A program made the position numbers and the translations under genes. Below, piece by piece: positions 9,700-16,634 of a DNA stretch of 64,000 bases (position 1 is the stretch's first letter; every line of letters starts with the position of its first letter). The notes below the pieces were generated by a model. That model did no database searches. It saw only the letters and a program-made list of their open reading frames with translations, and was not told the origin of the DNA. The DNA is from Synechococcus sp. MW101C3 (GTDB taxonomy: Bacteria; Cyanobacteriota; Cyanobacteriia; PCC-6307; Cyanobiaceae), in NCBI RefSeq assembly GCF_002252635.1, contig NZ_NQKX01000002.1, positions 1 through 64,000 of the forward strand. Reading direction: 5' to 3'.

Positions 9700-9786
9700 C
9701 GGAGAGGGAGGGATTCGAACCCTCGATAGAGTTGCCCCTATACAGCATTTCCAGTGCTGCGCCTTCGACCACTCGGCCACCTCTCC
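9700..9786 (-). tRNA. tRNA-Ser (anticodon GGA)
   Basis: The minus strand reads a complete 87-nt class II tRNA. The acceptor stem pairs GGAGAGG (9786-9780) with the block at 9701-9707, the discriminator is G at 9700, the anticodon loop is CTGGAAA giving GGA (serine), a long variable arm follows, and the T arm contains GGTTCGAATCC. CCA is not encoded. A terminator follows at 9664-9687. Confidence 0.97.
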
Positions 9787-9847
9787 AGCGGCTGTCATGG
9801 GGCAGGTGGCAATGTAGCAGCAGGCCGTTTGTGGTTCACGTCAGGCG

Positions 9848-10216
9848 ATGACCAAGCGTTTTCCGATCACGGTGCACTGGCGCCAGCAGAACAGGGTGAT
9901 CCGGCTGGATGTACCGGAGGGGGAGTACGTGCTGCGCAGCTTTGAGCAGCAGGGCCAGCCGCTCCCGTTCAGCTGCCGCAATGGCTGCTGCACGGCCTGC
10001 GCCGTGCGCGTGCTCTCGGGTGAGATCGATCAGCGCGAAGCGCTCGGCCTCTCGCAGGAGCTGCGCAAGCGCGGTTATGGCCTGCTCTGCGTGGCCCGCG
10101 CCATCGGCCCCCTCGAGGTGGAAACCCAGGATGAGGATGAGGTCTACGACCTGCAGTTCGGCCGCCACTTCGGACGTGGCCGCATTCGCCCCGGCCTGCC
10201 GATCGAAGAGGAGTGA
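9848..10216 (+). CDS. plant-type [2Fe-2S] ferredoxin
   Basis: A 122-residue soluble electron carrier. The cluster ligands are Cys43, Cys48, Cys51 and Cys81, exactly the C-x4-C-x2-C-x29-C spacing of plant-type ferredoxins, within SCRNGCCTACAV and YGLLCVA. After the core (about residues 1-95) there is a tail of about 27 residues with an acidic stretch (QDEDEVYD) and a basic GRHFGRGRIRPG segment, longer than photosynthetic PetF. It is thus probably one of the secondary cyanobacterial ferredoxins, with an unknown partner. It lies 52 bp before the inositol-phosphatase gene on the same strand. Confidence 0.9.
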   Translation: MTKRFPITVHWRQQNRVIRLDVPEGEYVLRSFEQQGQPLPFSCRNGCCTACAVRVLSGEIDQREALGLSQELRKRGYGLLCVARAIGPLEVETQDEDEVYDLQFGRHFGRGRIRPGLPIEEE

Positions 10217-10268
10217 GCCCCCAGCCATGCCCCTTCAGCCATAAACGCCCAGCCATGACTCCCCAGCC

Positions 10269-11171
10269 ATGACCATCAGCCTCCAGCCACCGGCCGCCGG
10301 CCATCCCTGTCTTTCCCAGCAGGCTCTGCAGGCCTCTGGCCTCAGCGCTGGGGACCTGGAGCGTCTGGCCGGGGTGGCCCGCCGGGCTGCCGCCGCCGGG
10401 GGCGCCGAGCTCACGCGTCATTTCGGCAAGCTGCGTCAGATCCGGGAGAAGGGCCGCGCCGGGGATCTGGTCACTGAGGCCGACCTGGCGGCTGAGCAGG
10501 CGGTGCTCGCTGTGCTCGCCGCTGAGAGTGCCGGTGTGGCCGTGCTTGCGGAAGAGAGCGGCCACAGTGCCACCCGCTCCGAACTGGAGTGGTGCGTGGA
10601 CCCGCTCGATGGCACCACCAACTTCGCCCACTCCTTCCCGCTGTTCGCCACCTCGGTGGGTCTCACCTGGCGGGGCACGCCGCTGCTGGGGGCAATCGAA
10701 GTGCCGGCCCTGGCGGAGCACTACTGGGCGGCGCCTGGCCTGGGCGCCTGGTGCAACGACCAGCCGATCCAGGTGAGCGGCTGCACCGAGCTCTCCGCCT
10801 CACTGCTGGTCACAGGCTTTGCCTACGACCGCACCACCCAGCCCGACACCAACTACACAGAGTTCTGCTGGTTCACCCACCGCAGCCATGGGGTGCGCCG
10901 CGGCGGGGCTGCCGCCGTGGATCTGGCCTTCGTGGCGGCCGGCCGACTTGATGGTTACTGGGAGCGCGGCCTTTCCCCGTGGGATCTGGCCGCCGGCGTG
11001 GTGCTGGTGGAGCAGGCGGGAGGCATCGTCAGTGCCTACGACGGCACGCCGTTGGTGCTGGCCGACGGGCGGCTGATCGCCACCACCCCCGGCCTGCATC
11101 GCGCCTTGATGGATGGGTTGGCCCAGTGCCGGCCGTTGCCAGGCGCGTTGTTCGGCGCCCCTGAGCTCTGA
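10269..11171 (+). CDS. inositol monophosphatase family protein
   Basis: A 300-residue Mg-dependent phosphatase of the IMPase family. The metal-binding motifs are EADLAAEQAV, LAEESG, WCVDPLDGTTNFAHSFP (DPxDGT) and WERGLSPWDLAAGVVLVEQAGG (WDxAAG). The substrate may be inositol-1-phosphate or another sugar phosphate; sequence alone does not decide. Several short copies of CCAGCCATG lie just upstream (about 10,219-10,271), so alternative ATGs exist; the one at 10269 gives a normal family length. It is followed by hisZ after 60 bp. Confidence 0.92.
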   Translation: MTISLQPPAAGHPCLSQQALQASGLSAGDLERLAGVARRAAAAGGAELTRHFGKLRQIREKGRAGDLVTEADLAAEQAVLAVLAAESAGVAVLAEESGHSATRSELEWCVDPLDGTTNFAHSFPLFATSVGLTWRGTPLLGAIEVPALAEHYWAAPGLGAWCNDQPIQVSGCTELSASLLVTGFAYDRTTQPDTNYTEFCWFTHRSHGVRRGGAAAVDLAFVAAGRLDGYWERGLSPWDLAAGVVLVEQAGGIVSAYDGTPLVLADGRLIATTPGLHRALMDGLAQCRPLPGALFGAPEL

Positions 11172-11231
11172 GCGGGCCCCACGCCGCTCCATAGGATCCA
11201 GCCGCTCCCCTTCACTTTCCTCTGATTTCCC

Positions 11232-12419
11232 ATGGCCCTGCAACCCGCCGCCGGCGCCAGGGATCTCAATCCCGTCCAGGTGGGCGGCAACCGCCGCCTG
11301 CGCGAGCGTCTGGCGGAGGTTTATCGGCTCTGGGGTTACCAGGAAGTGGCGCCCCCGTCGGTGGAACGGCTCGACACGCTGCAAGCCGGCGGCGGCATCG
11401 CCGAGCAGGACGTGGTGCGCCTCGCGGCGGAAGAACCGCTGGGCCTGCGGCCTGAGTTCACGGCCTCAATCGCCCGGGCGGCCTCCACCCGCATGGCTGC
11501 GCGCCCACGGCCGCTGCGCCTCTGGGCGGAAGGGCCCACCTTCCGCGCCCTCGTGGGTGATGCGGGCGGGCAACGCATCAGTGAGCAACTGCAGAGCGGT
11601 GTGGAGCTGCTCGGGGTGCCCACGGCCTCCGCCGATGTGGAGCTGATCCGCCTGCTGCTGGCCTGCACCGAAACGATCGGGTTGGAGCCCAGCCATGAAC
11701 CCCAGCTGCTGGTGGGCCACCACGGGCTGCTCAGCACCTTGCTCGAACGCTTGCCTTCCCAGCACCGCACTGCCTGTCGCCGTGCCCTCACGGGCTTCGA
11801 TCCGCTGGCCCTGGCTGCCATTCCGCTGGAGCCTGCGGAACAGGCGCAGCTGCAGGCCCTGCTGCGCCTGCGCGGCGAACCGGCCTGGGTGCTGAAGGAA
11901 CTGGAGCGGCACCTGGGGTCCAGCCCCCTGCTGACGGAGCTGGCCACCACGCTGGAGCTGGTGCGCCCAGCGGCCGAGCGCCTTGGGGTGCAACTGCAGC
12001 TGGATCCCAGCTTCCAGCCCCACTTCGATCTCTACGACGGCATCGTGCTCAAGCTGGTGTGTCGCGGTGCGGCGGCACCGGTGGATGTGGCCAGCGGCGG
12101 CCGCTACGACGCCCTGGTGGGTCGCTTCTGCGCCGATGCGGCCCTGGCCGCCGGTGTGGGTTTCGCCTTTTCGATCGAAGACATCCGCGAGCTGCTCAAC
12201 GGCACCCCCGGCAACAAGGAAGCGACCAGGCTGGCGGAGCGCCCGCTGCTGGTGGCCTACAGCCACCCCGACGGACTCGCTTCTGCCCTGGAACGGCTCG
12301 ATCAGCTCCATGCTCAGGGCCGCGCTGCCGAGCTGCTGCCGGAGCCGCTCGGCTCGCACGCTGAGGCGGAGGCGGTCGCCTTCAGCCGCGACAGCCAAGG
12401 GCTGGAGTGGCTTGGCTGA
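11232..12419 (+). CDS. hisZ: ATP phosphoribosyltransferase regulatory subunit
   Basis: A 395-residue class II aminoacyl-tRNA synthetase paralogue that pairs with short-form HisG in the first step of histidine synthesis. HisRS-like motifs are visible: RRLRERLAEVYRLWGYQEVAPPSVERLD (motif 1 region), LRPEFTASIARAASTRM, and ASGGRYDALVGRF near residue 291 (a HisA-type glycine-rich motif). The C-terminal anticodon-binding domain of true HisRS is missing and replaced by a shorter tail, which supports HisZ over HisS. Same strand as the upstream phosphatase. Confidence 0.92.
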   Translation: MALQPAAGARDLNPVQVGGNRRLRERLAEVYRLWGYQEVAPPSVERLDTLQAGGGIAEQDVVRLAAEEPLGLRPEFTASIARAASTRMAARPRPLRLWAEGPTFRALVGDAGGQRISEQLQSGVELLGVPTASADVELIRLLLACTETIGLEPSHEPQLLVGHHGLLSTLLERLPSQHRTACRRALTGFDPLALAAIPLEPAEQAQLQALLRLRGEPAWVLKELERHLGSSPLLTELATTLELVRPAAERLGVQLQLDPSFQPHFDLYDGIVLKLVCRGAAAPVDVASGGRYDALVGRFCADAALAAGVGFAFSIEDIRELLNGTPGNKEATRLAERPLLVAYSHPDGLASALERLDQLHAQGRAAELLPEPLGSHAEAEAVAFSRDSQGLEWLG

Positions 12420-12476: not shown

Positions 12477-12701
12477 ATGGCCCACACGATCCTCACCGAT
12501 GTCTGCGAGGGCGTGGCCGATTGCGTGGATGCCTGTCCCGTGGCCTGCATCAAGCCGGGCTCGGGAGCCAACAGCAAAGGCACCCCCTTTTACTGGATCG
12601 AATTCGACACCTGCATCGACTGCGGCATCTGCCTGCAGGTGTGCCCGGTGGAGGGGGCGATCGTGCCGGAGGAGCGGCCGGCCGAGCAGCGTCGCAGCTG
12701 A
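12477..12701 (+). CDS. small bacterial-type Fe-S ferredoxin
   Basis: A 74-residue ferredoxin with two Cys clusters. The second, CIDCGICLQVCPVEGAI, is a canonical C-x2-C-x2-C-x3-CP binding site for 4Fe-4S. The first, CEGVADCVDACPVACI, resembles the 7Fe ferredoxin pattern but is two residues shorter than in the Azotobacter protein, so its cluster type is uncertain. Its stop (12699-12701) is one base before the GTG start of the cytochrome gene, so it is the first gene of a three-gene redox operon. Confidence 0.93.
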   Translation: MAHTILTDVCEGVADCVDACPVACIKPGSGANSKGTPFYWIEFDTCIDCGICLQVCPVEGAIVPEERPAEQRRS

Positions 12702-12702
12702 G

Positions 12703-13299
12703 GTGTCACCCTCCCGCCATCGGCATCCGCTCTGGACGCGGGCCTTCCACGGGTTCAACCTGGTGGTGTTTCTGGTGATGGCTGCCAGCGGTCTGCAGAT
12801 TTACAACGCCCATCCCGTGTTCGGTGGTCGTGGCGGCGCCACAGTGCCGGAGCTGTTCACCCTGGGCGGTTGGCTGGCCGGCGGCCGCGACTGGCACTTC
12901 GGCTTCATGGGCCTCTGCGCCTTGAACCTTGGACTCTGGATCGCCCTGCTGATCCAGCGGCGCCGCGACCGGCTGGCGCAGAGCAGCGATCTGGCCACGC
13001 TGAACGCGAGTTCGAATCTGGCCAGGCGACGCCTGGCGGCGCATCGCCTGATCTACACCTTGATGCTTGTTCTGCTGGCCTTTGCGCTGATGACGGGCCT
13101 GGCGATGTACAAGCCGGCTCAGTTCTGGTGGCTGTCGGGCCTGTTCAGCTTCGGGGAACTGTTCGGTGCCACCAGCTGGCACACCTTGCGTGTGGCTCAC
13201 CTGGCCACGATTCCCGCCATCGCCTTCCTCACCCTGGCCCATGCCACCCTCTCCTGGCGGGTCGGAGGATGGCGGCTCTGGCGCTCCATGCTCGCTTGA
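12703..13299 (+). CDS. cytochrome b561/Ni-hydrogenase-type membrane cytochrome
   Basis: A 198-residue protein with four predicted membrane segments and His residues placed as haem ligands (RAFHGFNLVVFLVMAASGLQIYN, HFGFMGLCALNLG, AAHRLIYTLMLVLLAFALMTG, HTLRVAHLATIPAIAFLTLAH). This is the pattern of the diheme Ni-hydrogenase/formate dehydrogenase b-type subunit fold. The GTG at 12703 is chosen because the open frame upstream lies inside the ferredoxin gene. It overlaps the molybdoenzyme gene by 31 bp. It probably passes electrons between the membrane pool and the exported molybdoprotein. Confidence 0.85.
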   Translation: MSPSRHRHPLWTRAFHGFNLVVFLVMAASGLQIYNAHPVFGGRGGATVPELFTLGGWLAGGRDWHFGFMGLCALNLGLWIALLIQRRRDRLAQSSDLATLNASSNLARRRLAAHRLIYTLMLVLLAFALMTGLAMYKPAQFWWLSGLFSFGELFGATSWHTLRVAHLATIPAIAFLTLAHATLSWRVGGWRLWRSMLA

Positions 13300-14009
13300 C
13301 ACCGCAGAGCCCCTGGCTGACCCGCCGGCAATTGCTAGGCCTGGGTTACAGCGGTGGGGCTCCTTTGCTGCTGGGCGGGTGCGCTCTCAATCGCTTCAGC
13401 GAGCAGGTGGGAAAGGCTACGCAGCCGTTGAACGAGCGTCTTGAAGCGTTGCTGCAGGGGAAGGGCAAGGTGCCCGAGTTTCGCCGGGATCAGGTGGATC
13501 CTGCGGCGCTGCTGGTGAACAGCTTCAACGGTGTGCCGCGGCTGGATCCTGCGCGCTACCGGTTGCGCGTGGATGGGCTGGTGCGCCAGCCGCTGCAGTT
13601 GAATCTGGCCGATCTGGCCGCTCTGCCCCAGCACGAGATCACCATCCGCCATGTGTGCGTGGAGGGTTGGGCGGCAATCGTGTGCTGGTCGGGGGTGCGC
13701 CTCGCCGATGTGCTGGCACTGGCTGGATTTTCCAGCCTGGGCGGCTACGTGGCGATCGAATCCGCCGATCAGTTCTTCACCACCTGGGACATCGCTTCCG
13801 CGCTGCATCCCCAGACCCTGCTGGCCACCGGCATGAACGGTGCGCCGCTGCCGGTGGCCAATGGTGCCCCCCTGCGCCTCGCCTCGCCGATCAAGCTGGG
13901 CTACAAGCTCAGTAAATGGGTGACGGGGCTGGAGGTGATCAGCTCACTCGACCCGTTGCGGCGTGGCACCTGGGAAGACAACGGCTACGAGTGGTTTGCC
14001 GGGCTTTGA
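13269..14009 (+). CDS. YedY/sulfite-oxidase-type molybdopterin oxidoreductase
   Basis: A 246-residue oxidoreductase with the sulfite-oxidase Mo-binding fold. The N-terminus carries a Tat-like TRRQLLGLGYSGG followed by LLLGGC, which looks like a lipobox, so it is probably exported and membrane-anchored. The Mo-ligating Cys is in IRHVCVEGWAAIVCWSGVRLADVL; GAPLPVANGAPLRL and SPIKLGYKLSKWVTGLEV are further family blocks. The ATG at 13269 lies inside the end of the cytochrome gene. Family relatives (MsrP/YedY) reduce methionine sulfoxide or similar substrates; the substrate here is unknown. The neighbouring cytochrome is not YedZ-like by length. Confidence 0.88.
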   Translation: MAALALHARLTPQSPWLTRRQLLGLGYSGGAPLLLGGCALNRFSEQVGKATQPLNERLEALLQGKGKVPEFRRDQVDPAALLVNSFNGVPRLDPARYRLRVDGLVRQPLQLNLADLAALPQHEITIRHVCVEGWAAIVCWSGVRLADVLALAGFSSLGGYVAIESADQFFTTWDIASALHPQTLLATGMNGAPLPVANGAPLRLASPIKLGYKLSKWVTGLEVISSLDPLRRGTWEDNGYEWFAGL

Positions 14010-14744: not shown

Positions 14745-16634
14745 ATGACGGTGCTGGAACAGGGCCAGATTCAGATCCACACCGAGAACATCTTTCCGAT
14801 CATCAAGAAGGCCGTGTATTCCGGCCATGAGGTGTTTCTGCGGGAGCTGGTGAGCAATGGGGTGGATGCCATCAGCAAGCGCCGCATGGCAGCGATGGCT
14901 GGAGATTGCAGCGAGGGTGAGGAAGGCCGGATTCAGATCCGCATCGATCGCGAAGCCAAGACCCTCACCATCAGCGACAACGGCATCGGCATGACGGCCG
15001 ATGAGGTGAAGCGCTACATCAACCAGGTGGCCTTCTCCAGCGCCGAGGAGTTCCTGGAGAAATACAAACGGGAAGACGACGCCATCATCGGCCATTTTGG
15101 CCTTGGCTTCTACTCCAGCTTCATGGTGGCGGCAAAGGTTGAGCTGGTGAGCCTGAGCGCACGCCCCGAATCCGAGGCTGTGCGCTGGAGCTGCGACGGC
15201 TCCCCCAACTTCAGCCTCGAATCGGGCGACCGCGCCGAGCCTGGCACCGATGTGATCCTGCACCTGCAGGAGGAGGAGATGGAATACATCGAGCCATCCC
15301 GCATTCGCTCGCTGATCACCACCTACTGCGATTTCCTGCCGGTGGAAGTGCAGTTGGAAGGCGAAACGGTCAACAAGCGGCAGGCACCGTGGCGCCAGAG
15401 CGCCCGCGACCTCACCGAGAACGACTACATCGAGCTCTACCGCTATCTCTACCCCTTCCAGGGTGATCCCCTGCTCTGGGTTCACCTCAACACCGACTAC
15501 CCCTATAACCTTCAAGGCATCCTCTACTTCCCCAAACTCACAGGCCGGGGCGATTGGGAGAAAGGCGAAATTCGCCTGTACTGCAACCAGGTGTTCGTCA
15601 GCGATTCGATCAAGGAGGTGGTGCCCCGCTACCTGCTGCCGCTGCGCGGCGTGATCGACTCTCCCGACATCCCCCTCAACGTCAGCCGCTCCGCTCTGCA
15701 GACCGACCGGCGCGTGCGCTCAATCGGTGGCTTCGTGGCCAAGAAGGTGGGTGACCGCCTCAAGCAGCTCCAGAAGGACGAACCGACCCGCTACGCCGAG
15801 ATCTGGGAGGGTATCGCTCCCTTCATCAAGATCGGCGCCATGGAAGACGACAAGTTCGCCGAGCAGGTGGCCGATCTGGTGCTGTTCGGCACCACGGCCG
15901 CTGCCGCCGACCCCGAGCCGATCGCCGTGGGCGGTAAGGCGTTCACCACCCTCGCCGCCTACCGCAGCCGGCTGGCTCCTGAGAACGACAAGCGCATCCT
16001 CTATTGCACCGATGAGGCCGGCCAGGCCGGAGCTCTGGCCCTGTGGCAGAGCCAGGGCGCCGAGGTGCTCCTGGCCGATGCCCTGATCGATGCCCAGTTC
16101 ATCCCCTGGCTGGAGGCACGCCACGAGGAGCTCACCTTCAACCGCGTTGACGCCGAACTCGACGACAGCCTCCAGGAGAAGGAGAGCGAGCTCACCGATT
16201 CCCAGGGGAAGGACAGCTCCGAGCAGCTGCGCAGTCTGTTCAAGCAGGCCTTGGCTAACGACAAGGTGACCATCCAGGTGCAGGCCCTCAAGGGGGACAA
16301 CGCCCCAGCGGCCTTGATCCTGTTGCCGGAGCAGATGCGGCGCATCAATGACATGGGCGCCTTCATGGAGCAACGTCTGCCCGGCCTGCCCGACCACCAC
16401 GTGCTGCTGATCAACCGCCGCCATGCCCTGGTGGAGGGGCTGCTGAAGCTGTCCGCCGGCGCCGTGATCACCGGTGGCGGCAGCTCCCCCAGCCAGCAGC
16501 TCGCCGACGACCTCAGCCGTCACATCTACGAGCTGGCCCGCCTTTCGGTGGGAGGCCTTGAACCCAACGAGCTGGCGGGCTTCCAGCAGCGCAGCTCCAA
16601 CCTGATGGGTCGCCTCATGGAGCGGGGCCTCTGA
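14745..16634 (+). CDS. htpG: Hsp90 chaperone HtpG
   Basis: A 629-residue Hsp90. The N-terminal ATPase (GHKL) domain has ELVSNGVDAISKRR, ISDNGIGMTADEVKRYINQVAFSSAEEF and GHFGLGFYSSFMVA; the middle domain includes YLYPFQGDPLLWVHLNTDYPYN and LPLRGVIDSPDIPLNVSRS; the C-terminal dimer domain follows. Length is usual for bacteria. In cyanobacteria HtpG supports heat, cold and oxidative stress survival and phycobilisome and tetrapyrrole homeostasis (family knowledge). The ATG at 14745 begins directly at the conserved N-terminal helix. Confidence 0.97.
   Translation: MTVLEQGQIQIHTENIFPIIKKAVYSGHEVFLRELVSNGVDAISKRRMAAMAGDCSEGEEGRIQIRIDREAKTLTISDNGIGMTADEVKRYINQVAFSSAEEFLEKYKREDDAIIGHFGLGFYSSFMVAAKVELVSLSARPESEAVRWSCDGSPNFSLESGDRAEPGTDVILHLQEEEMEYIEPSRIRSLITTYCDFLPVEVQLEGETVNKRQAPWRQSARDLTENDYIELYRYLYPFQGDPLLWVHLNTDYPYNLQGILYFPKLTGRGDWEKGEIRLYCNQVFVSDSIKEVVPRYLLPLRGVIDSPDIPLNVSRSALQTDRRVRSIGGFVAKKVGDRLKQLQKDEPTRYAEIWEGIAPFIKIGAMEDDKFAEQVADLVLFGTTAAAADPEPIAVGGKAFTTLAAYRSRLAPENDKRILYCTDEAGQAGALALWQSQGAEVLLADALIDAQFIPWLEARHEELTFNRVDAELDDSLQEKESELTDSQGKDSSEQLRSLFKQALANDKVTIQVQALKGDNAPAALILLPEQMRRINDMGAFMEQRLPGLPDHHVLLINRRHALVEGLLKLSAGAVITGGGSSPSQQLADDLSRHIYELARLSVGGLEPNELAGFQQRSSNLMGRLMERGL

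Follow-up and report, generated by a model that had tools for sequence, protein, structure and literature searches.

A conserved cytochrome b and molybdoprotein gene pair, a probable variant of MsrPQ, placed behind a housekeeping ferredoxin gene in Synechococcus sp. MW101C3

The b-type cytochrome and the molybdoprotein encoded next to each other in Synechococcus sp. MW101C3 are a real conserved two-gene redox unit and probably a variant of MsrPQ, and the ferredoxin gene directly upstream of them is probably only a recent host operon. The window, that is the whole stretch of DNA analysed, covers bases 1-64000 of contig 2 of the 3.03-Mb genome (G000), and its molybdoprotein gene is the single PF00174 gene of this genome. 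The features on which the analysis is built are listed below.

9848..10216, + strand: [2Fe-2S] ferredoxin of the conserved suhB-hisZ-fed8 block, in the position of fed2 in the published cluster
10269..11171, + strand: inositol monophosphatase family gene (suhB-like) of the same conserved block, from Pfam and synteny
11232..12419, + strand: hisZ, the upstream neighbour that fixes the ancestral context of the ferredoxin (NF008939, 453 bits, cut-off 335)
12477..12701, + strand: ferredoxin, bacterial-type and Fed8-like, 74 aa (Fer4_7, 36.7 bits, cut-off 27)
12703..13299, + strand: b-type cytochrome of the hydrogenase/formate dehydrogenase type (PF01292, Ni_hydr_CYTB), GTG start, 198 aa
13269..14009, + strand: molybdoprotein (PF00174, sulfite oxidase/MsrP fold), predicted to be exported as a Tat lipoprotein; its start may be ATG 13269 or TTG 13296
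13323..13328, + strand: codons of the twin arginines R19 and R20 of the molybdoprotein signal, invariant alignment columns
13380..13382, + strand: codon of the lipobox Cys38 of the molybdoprotein (LLLGGC), invariant alignment column
13656..13658, + strand: codon of Cys130 of the molybdoprotein, putative Mo ligand in an MsrP-like CVExW motif, from the alignment and the PDB profile search
14745..16634, + strand: gene that we take to be htpG-like, downstream border of the insertion interval fed8-htpG, used as a query

The ferredoxin, cytochrome and molybdoprotein reading frames are all open in the window, and Pfam matches above the cut-offs for Fer4_7, Ni_hydr_CYTB and Oxidored_molyb agree with the original prediction of three redox genes of these types. 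The same prediction described the genes as tightly packed. The gap of 1 nt between ferredoxin and cytochrome was confirmed, but the overlap of 31 nt between cytochrome and molybdoprotein holds only with the ATG at 13269 and shrinks to 4 nt with the TTG at 13296. The automatic start choice for the molybdoprotein of a sister species (L083) is also a TTG near the RR motif, and due to these TTG alternatives both the molybdoprotein start and the 31-nt figure are uncertain.

It is near certain that the cytochrome and the molybdoprotein form a true conserved unit, and since the pairing recurs across the phylum it is not mere chance proximity. Chance proximity would have shown in relatives with the molybdoprotein but without the other two genes, and for the cytochrome this is not the case, as it adjoins the molybdoprotein, upstream on the same strand, in 37 of the 38 relatives' loci with a close molybdoprotein (the exception is L105). 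It was also found in 71 of 80 named loci, and part of the nine loci without it stop early at a contig border; the samples overlap, with loci L083-L100 and L160-L188 coming from shared genomes. Cytochrome matches were obtained in 46 of 292 cyanobacterial genomes, and the molybdoprotein search matched 108 of 386 at E 0.001, many of the matches being distant paralogues. Within the family, 19 of 151 genomes have the molybdoprotein. In the literature we found no paper on this cytochrome b-molybdoprotein pair and none joining YedY, cytochrome b561 and cyanobacteria, and the literature on ECF sigma factors, anti-sigma factors and methionine sulfoxide reductase in cyanobacteria gave nothing relevant.

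The ferredoxin has a different history: it is an old housekeeping protein, the Fed8 of the suhB-hisZ-fed8 block, and does not belong to the pair as a dedicated component. A conserved gene order with fed2, suhB, hisZ and fed8 has been published, and fed8 is essential in Synechocystis, according to the part of the source available (PMC4284462). The bacterial-type ferredoxin of the window lies inside the same fed2-suhB-hisZ block. All 30 ferredoxin loci examined have hisZ upstream, whether the pair is present or not, and the cytochrome comes next after the ferredoxin in five of them (one truncated), with htpG directly after it in other loci of this set. The ferredoxin occurs in 111 of 151 family genomes compared to the 19 with the molybdoprotein, and only five of the 38 molybdoprotein loci contain it anywhere in the fetched stretch, hisZ being present in all five. 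The five ferredoxin loci among the 80 named ones, again all with hisZ, are by position and content the same five genomes. The ferredoxin is intact in the sister species G441, in which similarity to the cytochrome ends after about 45 codons and the molybdoprotein was not found in the genome (88% complete). Behind the cytochrome remnant G441 has, on the opposite strand, a frame that reads as a SulP-like transporter (L156:2135-3868; name by sequence reading). A dedicated ferredoxin was thus rejected because of the distribution of the gene and the hisZ synteny, and G441, which keeps the ferredoxin without the pair, points the same way. The predicted wiring, in which ferredoxin would feed electrons through the membrane to an outside acceptor, consequently loses its support, the ferredoxin belonging to the suhB-hisZ-fed8 order. 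It is conceivable that Fed8 reduces the cytochrome directly from the cytoplasm and that the electrons then reach an outside acceptor through the molybdoprotein. The spacing of 1 nt that the window shares with G413 (G445 has about 3 nt with the chosen starts) and the lack of the sigma motif upstream of the cytochrome in the window's genus might suggest this; against the distribution, the constant company of hisZ and the retention in G441, we regard it as very improbable. These results suggest caution in inferring function from tight spacing, as here the nearest neighbour is the incidental one.

The cytochrome belongs to Ni_hydr_CYTB (PF01292) with 37.8 bits, above the cut-off of 30.1. Pfam finds no other domain in it, and PF01794 (Ferric_reduct, the domain of MsrQ/YedZ) is absent from G000. 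The identity as YedZ/MsrQ was rejected on these grounds, in line with the original prediction of a hydrogenase/formate dehydrogenase-type cytochrome. Invariant histidines were found at positions 16, 65, 114, 166 and 180 among the aligned relatives, and these five would be enough to hold two haems. The structure model (mean pLDDT 85.9) matched best to HyaC of hydrogenase-1 (4gd3, Z 8.2) and FdnI (1kqf, 7.4), scores that are weak for a helical protein, and a PDB search directly with the cytochrome sequence gave two chance-like matches only. The cytochrome is the putative quinol-oxidising membrane partner of the molybdoprotein.

The molybdoprotein shares the fold of its family, as indicated by 121.6 bits to Oxidored_molyb (PF00174, cut-off 24) and Z scores of 17.5-15.5 to family structures. 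All 38 aligned molybdoproteins have R19, R20, the lipobox C38 and C130, so that the Tat-like and lipobox features of the original prediction stand, and with the conserved Tat signal the protein is predicted to be exported as MsrP is. In the whole set, a regular expression for twin arginines followed by a lipobox matched 76 of 79 sequences; of the three misses, one has an atypical RRQW, another LLLDSC and the third a wrong start. The stretch C130 V131 E132 G133 W134 is likewise invariant in 38 of 38 and aligns to MRCVEAW of 1xdq, the E. coli MsrP form. The alignments comprised 20 of 39 molybdoprotein sequences (A1), 37 of 79 molybdoprotein sequences and the window (A3) and 36 of 64 sequences and the window (A4). 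Among the NCBIfam models NF003767 (MsrP) scored best, although its 85.2 bits are far under the cut-off of 207 (relatives' molybdoproteins reach 97.0 and 98.3 bits), and SorA, SoxC and SorT gave 61.3 of 600, 53.5 of 420 and 22.3 of 570 bits. A PDB profile search placed MsrP first (1e-24) and SorA next (1.3e-13). The structure model (mean pLDDT 75.8), in contrast, matched SorA slightly better (2blf Z 17.5, 2c9x 17.4), followed by SoxC (16.5) and MsrP (15.6).

These structural scores support sulfite oxidation, the main rival to a repair function, in which the molybdoprotein would oxidise sulfite outside the membrane and the cytochrome would pass the electrons to the quinone pool. Two genes near the pair, both named by sequence reading, would fit the same function, one of them persulfide-dioxygenase/rhodanese-like (5 of 80 and 3 of 38 loci), the other for a TauE-like exporter (3 of 80 and 4 of 38 loci). 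The motif after the Mo cysteine, however, is CVExW as in MsrP and unlike that of sulfite oxidases, and the sequence scores favour MsrP. In sulfite oxidases an arginine takes part in substrate binding (R55 in SorA, R138 in chicken sulfite oxidase), and in the region where they place it, residues 80-90 of the molybdoprotein, no invariant or near-invariant Arg was found, the alignment there being uncertain by about a residue. Together with a promoter motif common to the pair and msrA (see below), this makes a sulfite dehydrogenase rather improbable. The persulfide dioxygenase/rhodanese-like genes were seen in Synechococcus-type loci (L095, L098, L099, L170, L174, L184, L185 and L187), several of which also have an ArsR-like regulator, hinting at a link to sulfur oxidation (names by reading).

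Recurrent neighbours of the pair in relatives were found by clustering and then named by Pfam and NCBIfam. They comprise a SigK-like ECF sigma factor, an RskA_C anti-sigma factor, DM13 and DUF4079 proteins, an MsrA whose N-terminus resembles a signal, a thioredoxin-like protein that carries an RR signal, either a CcdA-like protein or a DipZ-like fusion, and a Met-rich (MXKDX) lipoprotein near TIGR02953 (39.1 bits, below the cut-off of 41). In one genome (G346, L120) sigma, RskA, Met-rich MXKDX, thioredoxin, CcdA, cytochrome and molybdoprotein follow in succession on one strand, and L207, L231 and L232 share the gene order Met-rich, thioredoxin, CcdA, MsrA, cytochrome and molybdoprotein. Over the 80 named loci the partners were thioredoxin/DipZ (23), CcdA (21), DM13 (17), sigma (15), RskA (15), MsrA (10) and the Met-rich protein (6, of which L210 is doubtful). 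None of 20 control loci from another PF00174 subfamily in the phylum holds any partner or a Met-rich gene. Nine matched pair loci from genomes shared with the control had the cytochrome in eight cases and partners in one, and the control is thus clean as regards the cytochrome but less strong for the remaining partners, whose clusters lie in other genera. In the family, RskA accompanies the molybdoprotein in 18 of 19 genomes and occurs in 15 of the 132 that lack it (Fisher 2e-13); for DipZ the counts are 9 of 19 and 3 of 132 (Fisher 2e-7). These p-values are too small because the genomes are related. Co-occurrence of MsrA is uninformative here, as paralogues put MsrA in 144 of 151 family genomes.

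A linked ECF sigma and anti-sigma factor, as in loci of the Azospira/Brucella type, is therefore found in relatives, while in the window the two are unlinked from the pair, and MsrQ, the membrane partner in loci of that type, is replaced by another cytochrome. No partner gene lies near the pair within the 64 kb of the window, and in G000 neither a close exported MsrA nor DipZ is present. On contig 4 of G000 sigma/RskA stand beside moaC-like and moeA-like genes (L154:7870-9300, 9786-11586; names by sequence reading), so that the regulator which flanks the molybdoprotein in relatives looks to be placed with cofactor-synthesis genes in this genome. Genes resembling moaC/moaE were also seen near the pair in the family members L093, L094, L100, L169 and L188.

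Spaced 5-mers enumerated upstream of the sigma, DM13 and cytochrome genes of the family revealed a 25-bp promoter-like motif, [CA]ATCC-N15-CGGTA, that is common to the upstream regions of the sigma, DM13, cytochrome and msrA genes. Six of 18 relatives carry it 49-76 nt ahead of the cytochrome gene, and L093 has it 40 nt upstream of msrA. When 3000 windows of 300 nt were drawn at random from the same set of loci, 28 contained the full motif, true sites counted in. In 14 further family loci, taken on both strands, 18 of 18 strict matches were within 250 nt upstream of the four gene kinds (sigma 8, DM13 5, cytochrome 4, msrA 1), a test that is not fully independent because these loci are related to the training loci and some sites are identical. 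Among the 27 family loci in which the cytochrome has a start, 13 repeat earlier loci, and L176 and L177, having no start, were dropped. Outside the family the strict motif gave 2 matches in 51 loci, and a de novo search there yielded nothing but coding-like repeats. A looser pattern matched 16 times in G000 compared to 8 for a backward control, one match preceding the sigma gene and one a DM13 gene. AATCC-N15-CGGTA is found upstream of a DM13 gene on contig 3 of this genome (183548-183572; L271), beside EamA-like and DUF4079-like frames. No motif was detected upstream of the cytochrome in the window, the best partial match falling inside the ferredoxin gene. From this, and from the position of the pair 1 nt after fed8, we infer expression via fed8 in the window's genus. 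The term operon in the original prediction may thus be literally right in this genus, where cotranscription is possible, although the arrangement is recent.

We consider it fairly probable that the pair is an MsrPQ-like system for the repair of methionine sulfoxide in the envelope, in which a cytochrome b of the hydrogenase type stands in for MsrQ, because of the MsrP-like motif, the company of MsrA, thioredoxin, CcdA and Met-rich proteins, and the parallel with bcrXQP of Brucella. Electrons would enter from (plasto)quinol at the membrane diheme cytochrome b and go on to the molybdoprotein, anchored by its lipid outside the membrane, and this enzyme would then reduce methionine sulfoxide residues of envelope proteins. 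Stress may, in relatives, free the SigK-like ECF sigma factor from RskA, by which the pair, DM13 and MsrA would be raised together, in an envelope-stress regulon that would also hold CcdA-thioredoxin and scavenger proteins rich in Met; its exported MsrA would be fed by thiols. In the window's genus, with no detectable sigma promoter, the pair is probably expressed together with fed8. In Brucella, an ECF sigma factor drives a Met-rich MXKDX peptide and MsrQP, contributing to HOCl resistance, as given in the part of the source available (PMC8315932), and a reference that PMC7406223 cites calls SigK-RskA of M. tuberculosis redox sensitive in its title.

The CVExW motif common with E. coli MsrP and the rank of MsrP over SorA in the sequence profile thus speak for repair. 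Against it, the MsrP cut-off is missed by far, most loci are without repair partners (outside the family most show the cytochrome only), some Synechococcus loci have sulfur-oxidation genes nearby instead, the window is without any partner, and no reported activity was found in the literature for this molybdoprotein subfamily. Due to the SorA structural scores, the sulfur genes, the partner-poor loci and the absence of reported activity we do not hold repair more firmly than this. The same fold and wiring would also serve the reduction of another S- or N-oxide outside the membrane (e.g. DMSO, free methionine sulfoxide or hydroxylated compounds), with protein repair as a side activity, and MsrP/YedY indeed reduces DMSO and TMAO weakly, according to the part of the source available (PMC4228395). 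The MsrA, Met-rich and CcdA-thioredoxin neighbours, however, suggest protein repair and not oxide respiration, and we find this function unlikely. Going one step further with the repair function, we tentatively suggest a cyanobacterial version of MsrPQ in which a Tat lipoprotein with the MsrP fold, supplied from the plastoquinone pool through the hydrogenase-type cytochrome b, stands under a SigK/RskA envelope-stress switch along with a Met-rich scavenger and a thiol-fed MsrA, and it is possible that the window's genus has moved this module to the essential gene fed8, from stress repair to housekeeping. If this is true, photosynthetic electrons would repair oxidised proteins outside the membrane. 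Photosynthetic cells make oxidants, and the conserved pair and the putative shared sigma-factor promoter provide a gene set that is open to deletion and assay.

The locus can be compared with several known systems. The SigF/NrsF-MrpX-YedYZ locus of Azospira combines ECF sigma/anti-sigma, a Met-rich MXKDX protein and a molybdoenzyme-cytochrome in a comparable stress locus. The BcrS/AbcS-bcrXQP locus of Brucella is a stress locus that likewise unites ECF sigma/anti-sigma, Met-rich MXKDX, a molybdoenzyme and a membrane cytochrome, in the part of the source available (PMC8315932). In contrast to both, the relatives examined here have a SigK-like sigma and an RskA_C anti-sigma factor, use another cytochrome family and add CcdA-thioredoxin and MsrA, and in the window none of these regulatory and repair partners is linked. 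Sulfite dehydrogenases of the SorA/SorT/SoxC type share the PF00174 fold and give the best structural matches to the molybdoprotein, but they have another motif at the Mo cysteine, and their conserved substrate Arg was not found here. Their partner is c-type, compared to the b-type partner in this pair. Fed8 (ssr3184) of Synechocystis, also a bacterial-type ferredoxin, shares its block with fed2, suhB and hisZ, in the part of the source available (PMC4284462), a likeness by gene context, and it differs in that the window's genus has the cytochrome-molybdoprotein pair after the ferredoxin.

Canonical MsrP (NF003767 above cut-off) occurs in 58 of 386 cyanobacterial genomes, the pair-type molybdoprotein in 54 (hand-listed matches at E 1e-60 or better) and both in five. 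We make no claim of mutual exclusion between them, which was dropped because of a Fisher p of 0.30. Fourteen canonical msrP loci (L260-L267, L284-L289) showed no recurring MsrQ-like neighbour, and in the four genomes checked with both canonical MsrP and PF01794 the PF01794 genes are far from msrP; one canonical locus (L260) has RR plus a lipobox-like LLAGC. A further comparison is with MsrPQ (YedYZ) of E. coli, also an exported Tat molybdoprotein with CVExW beside a membrane b-type cytochrome, and the electron path proposed here, from quinol through haem and Mo to methionine sulfoxide, would be alike. The differences are that the molybdoprotein is shorter (246 aa versus a model of 320 positions), is predicted to be a lipoprotein and scores far below the MsrP cut-off, and that its membrane partner is PF01292, not PF01794; if the repair function is true, an unrelated cytochrome family would have replaced the MsrQ half of MsrPQ.
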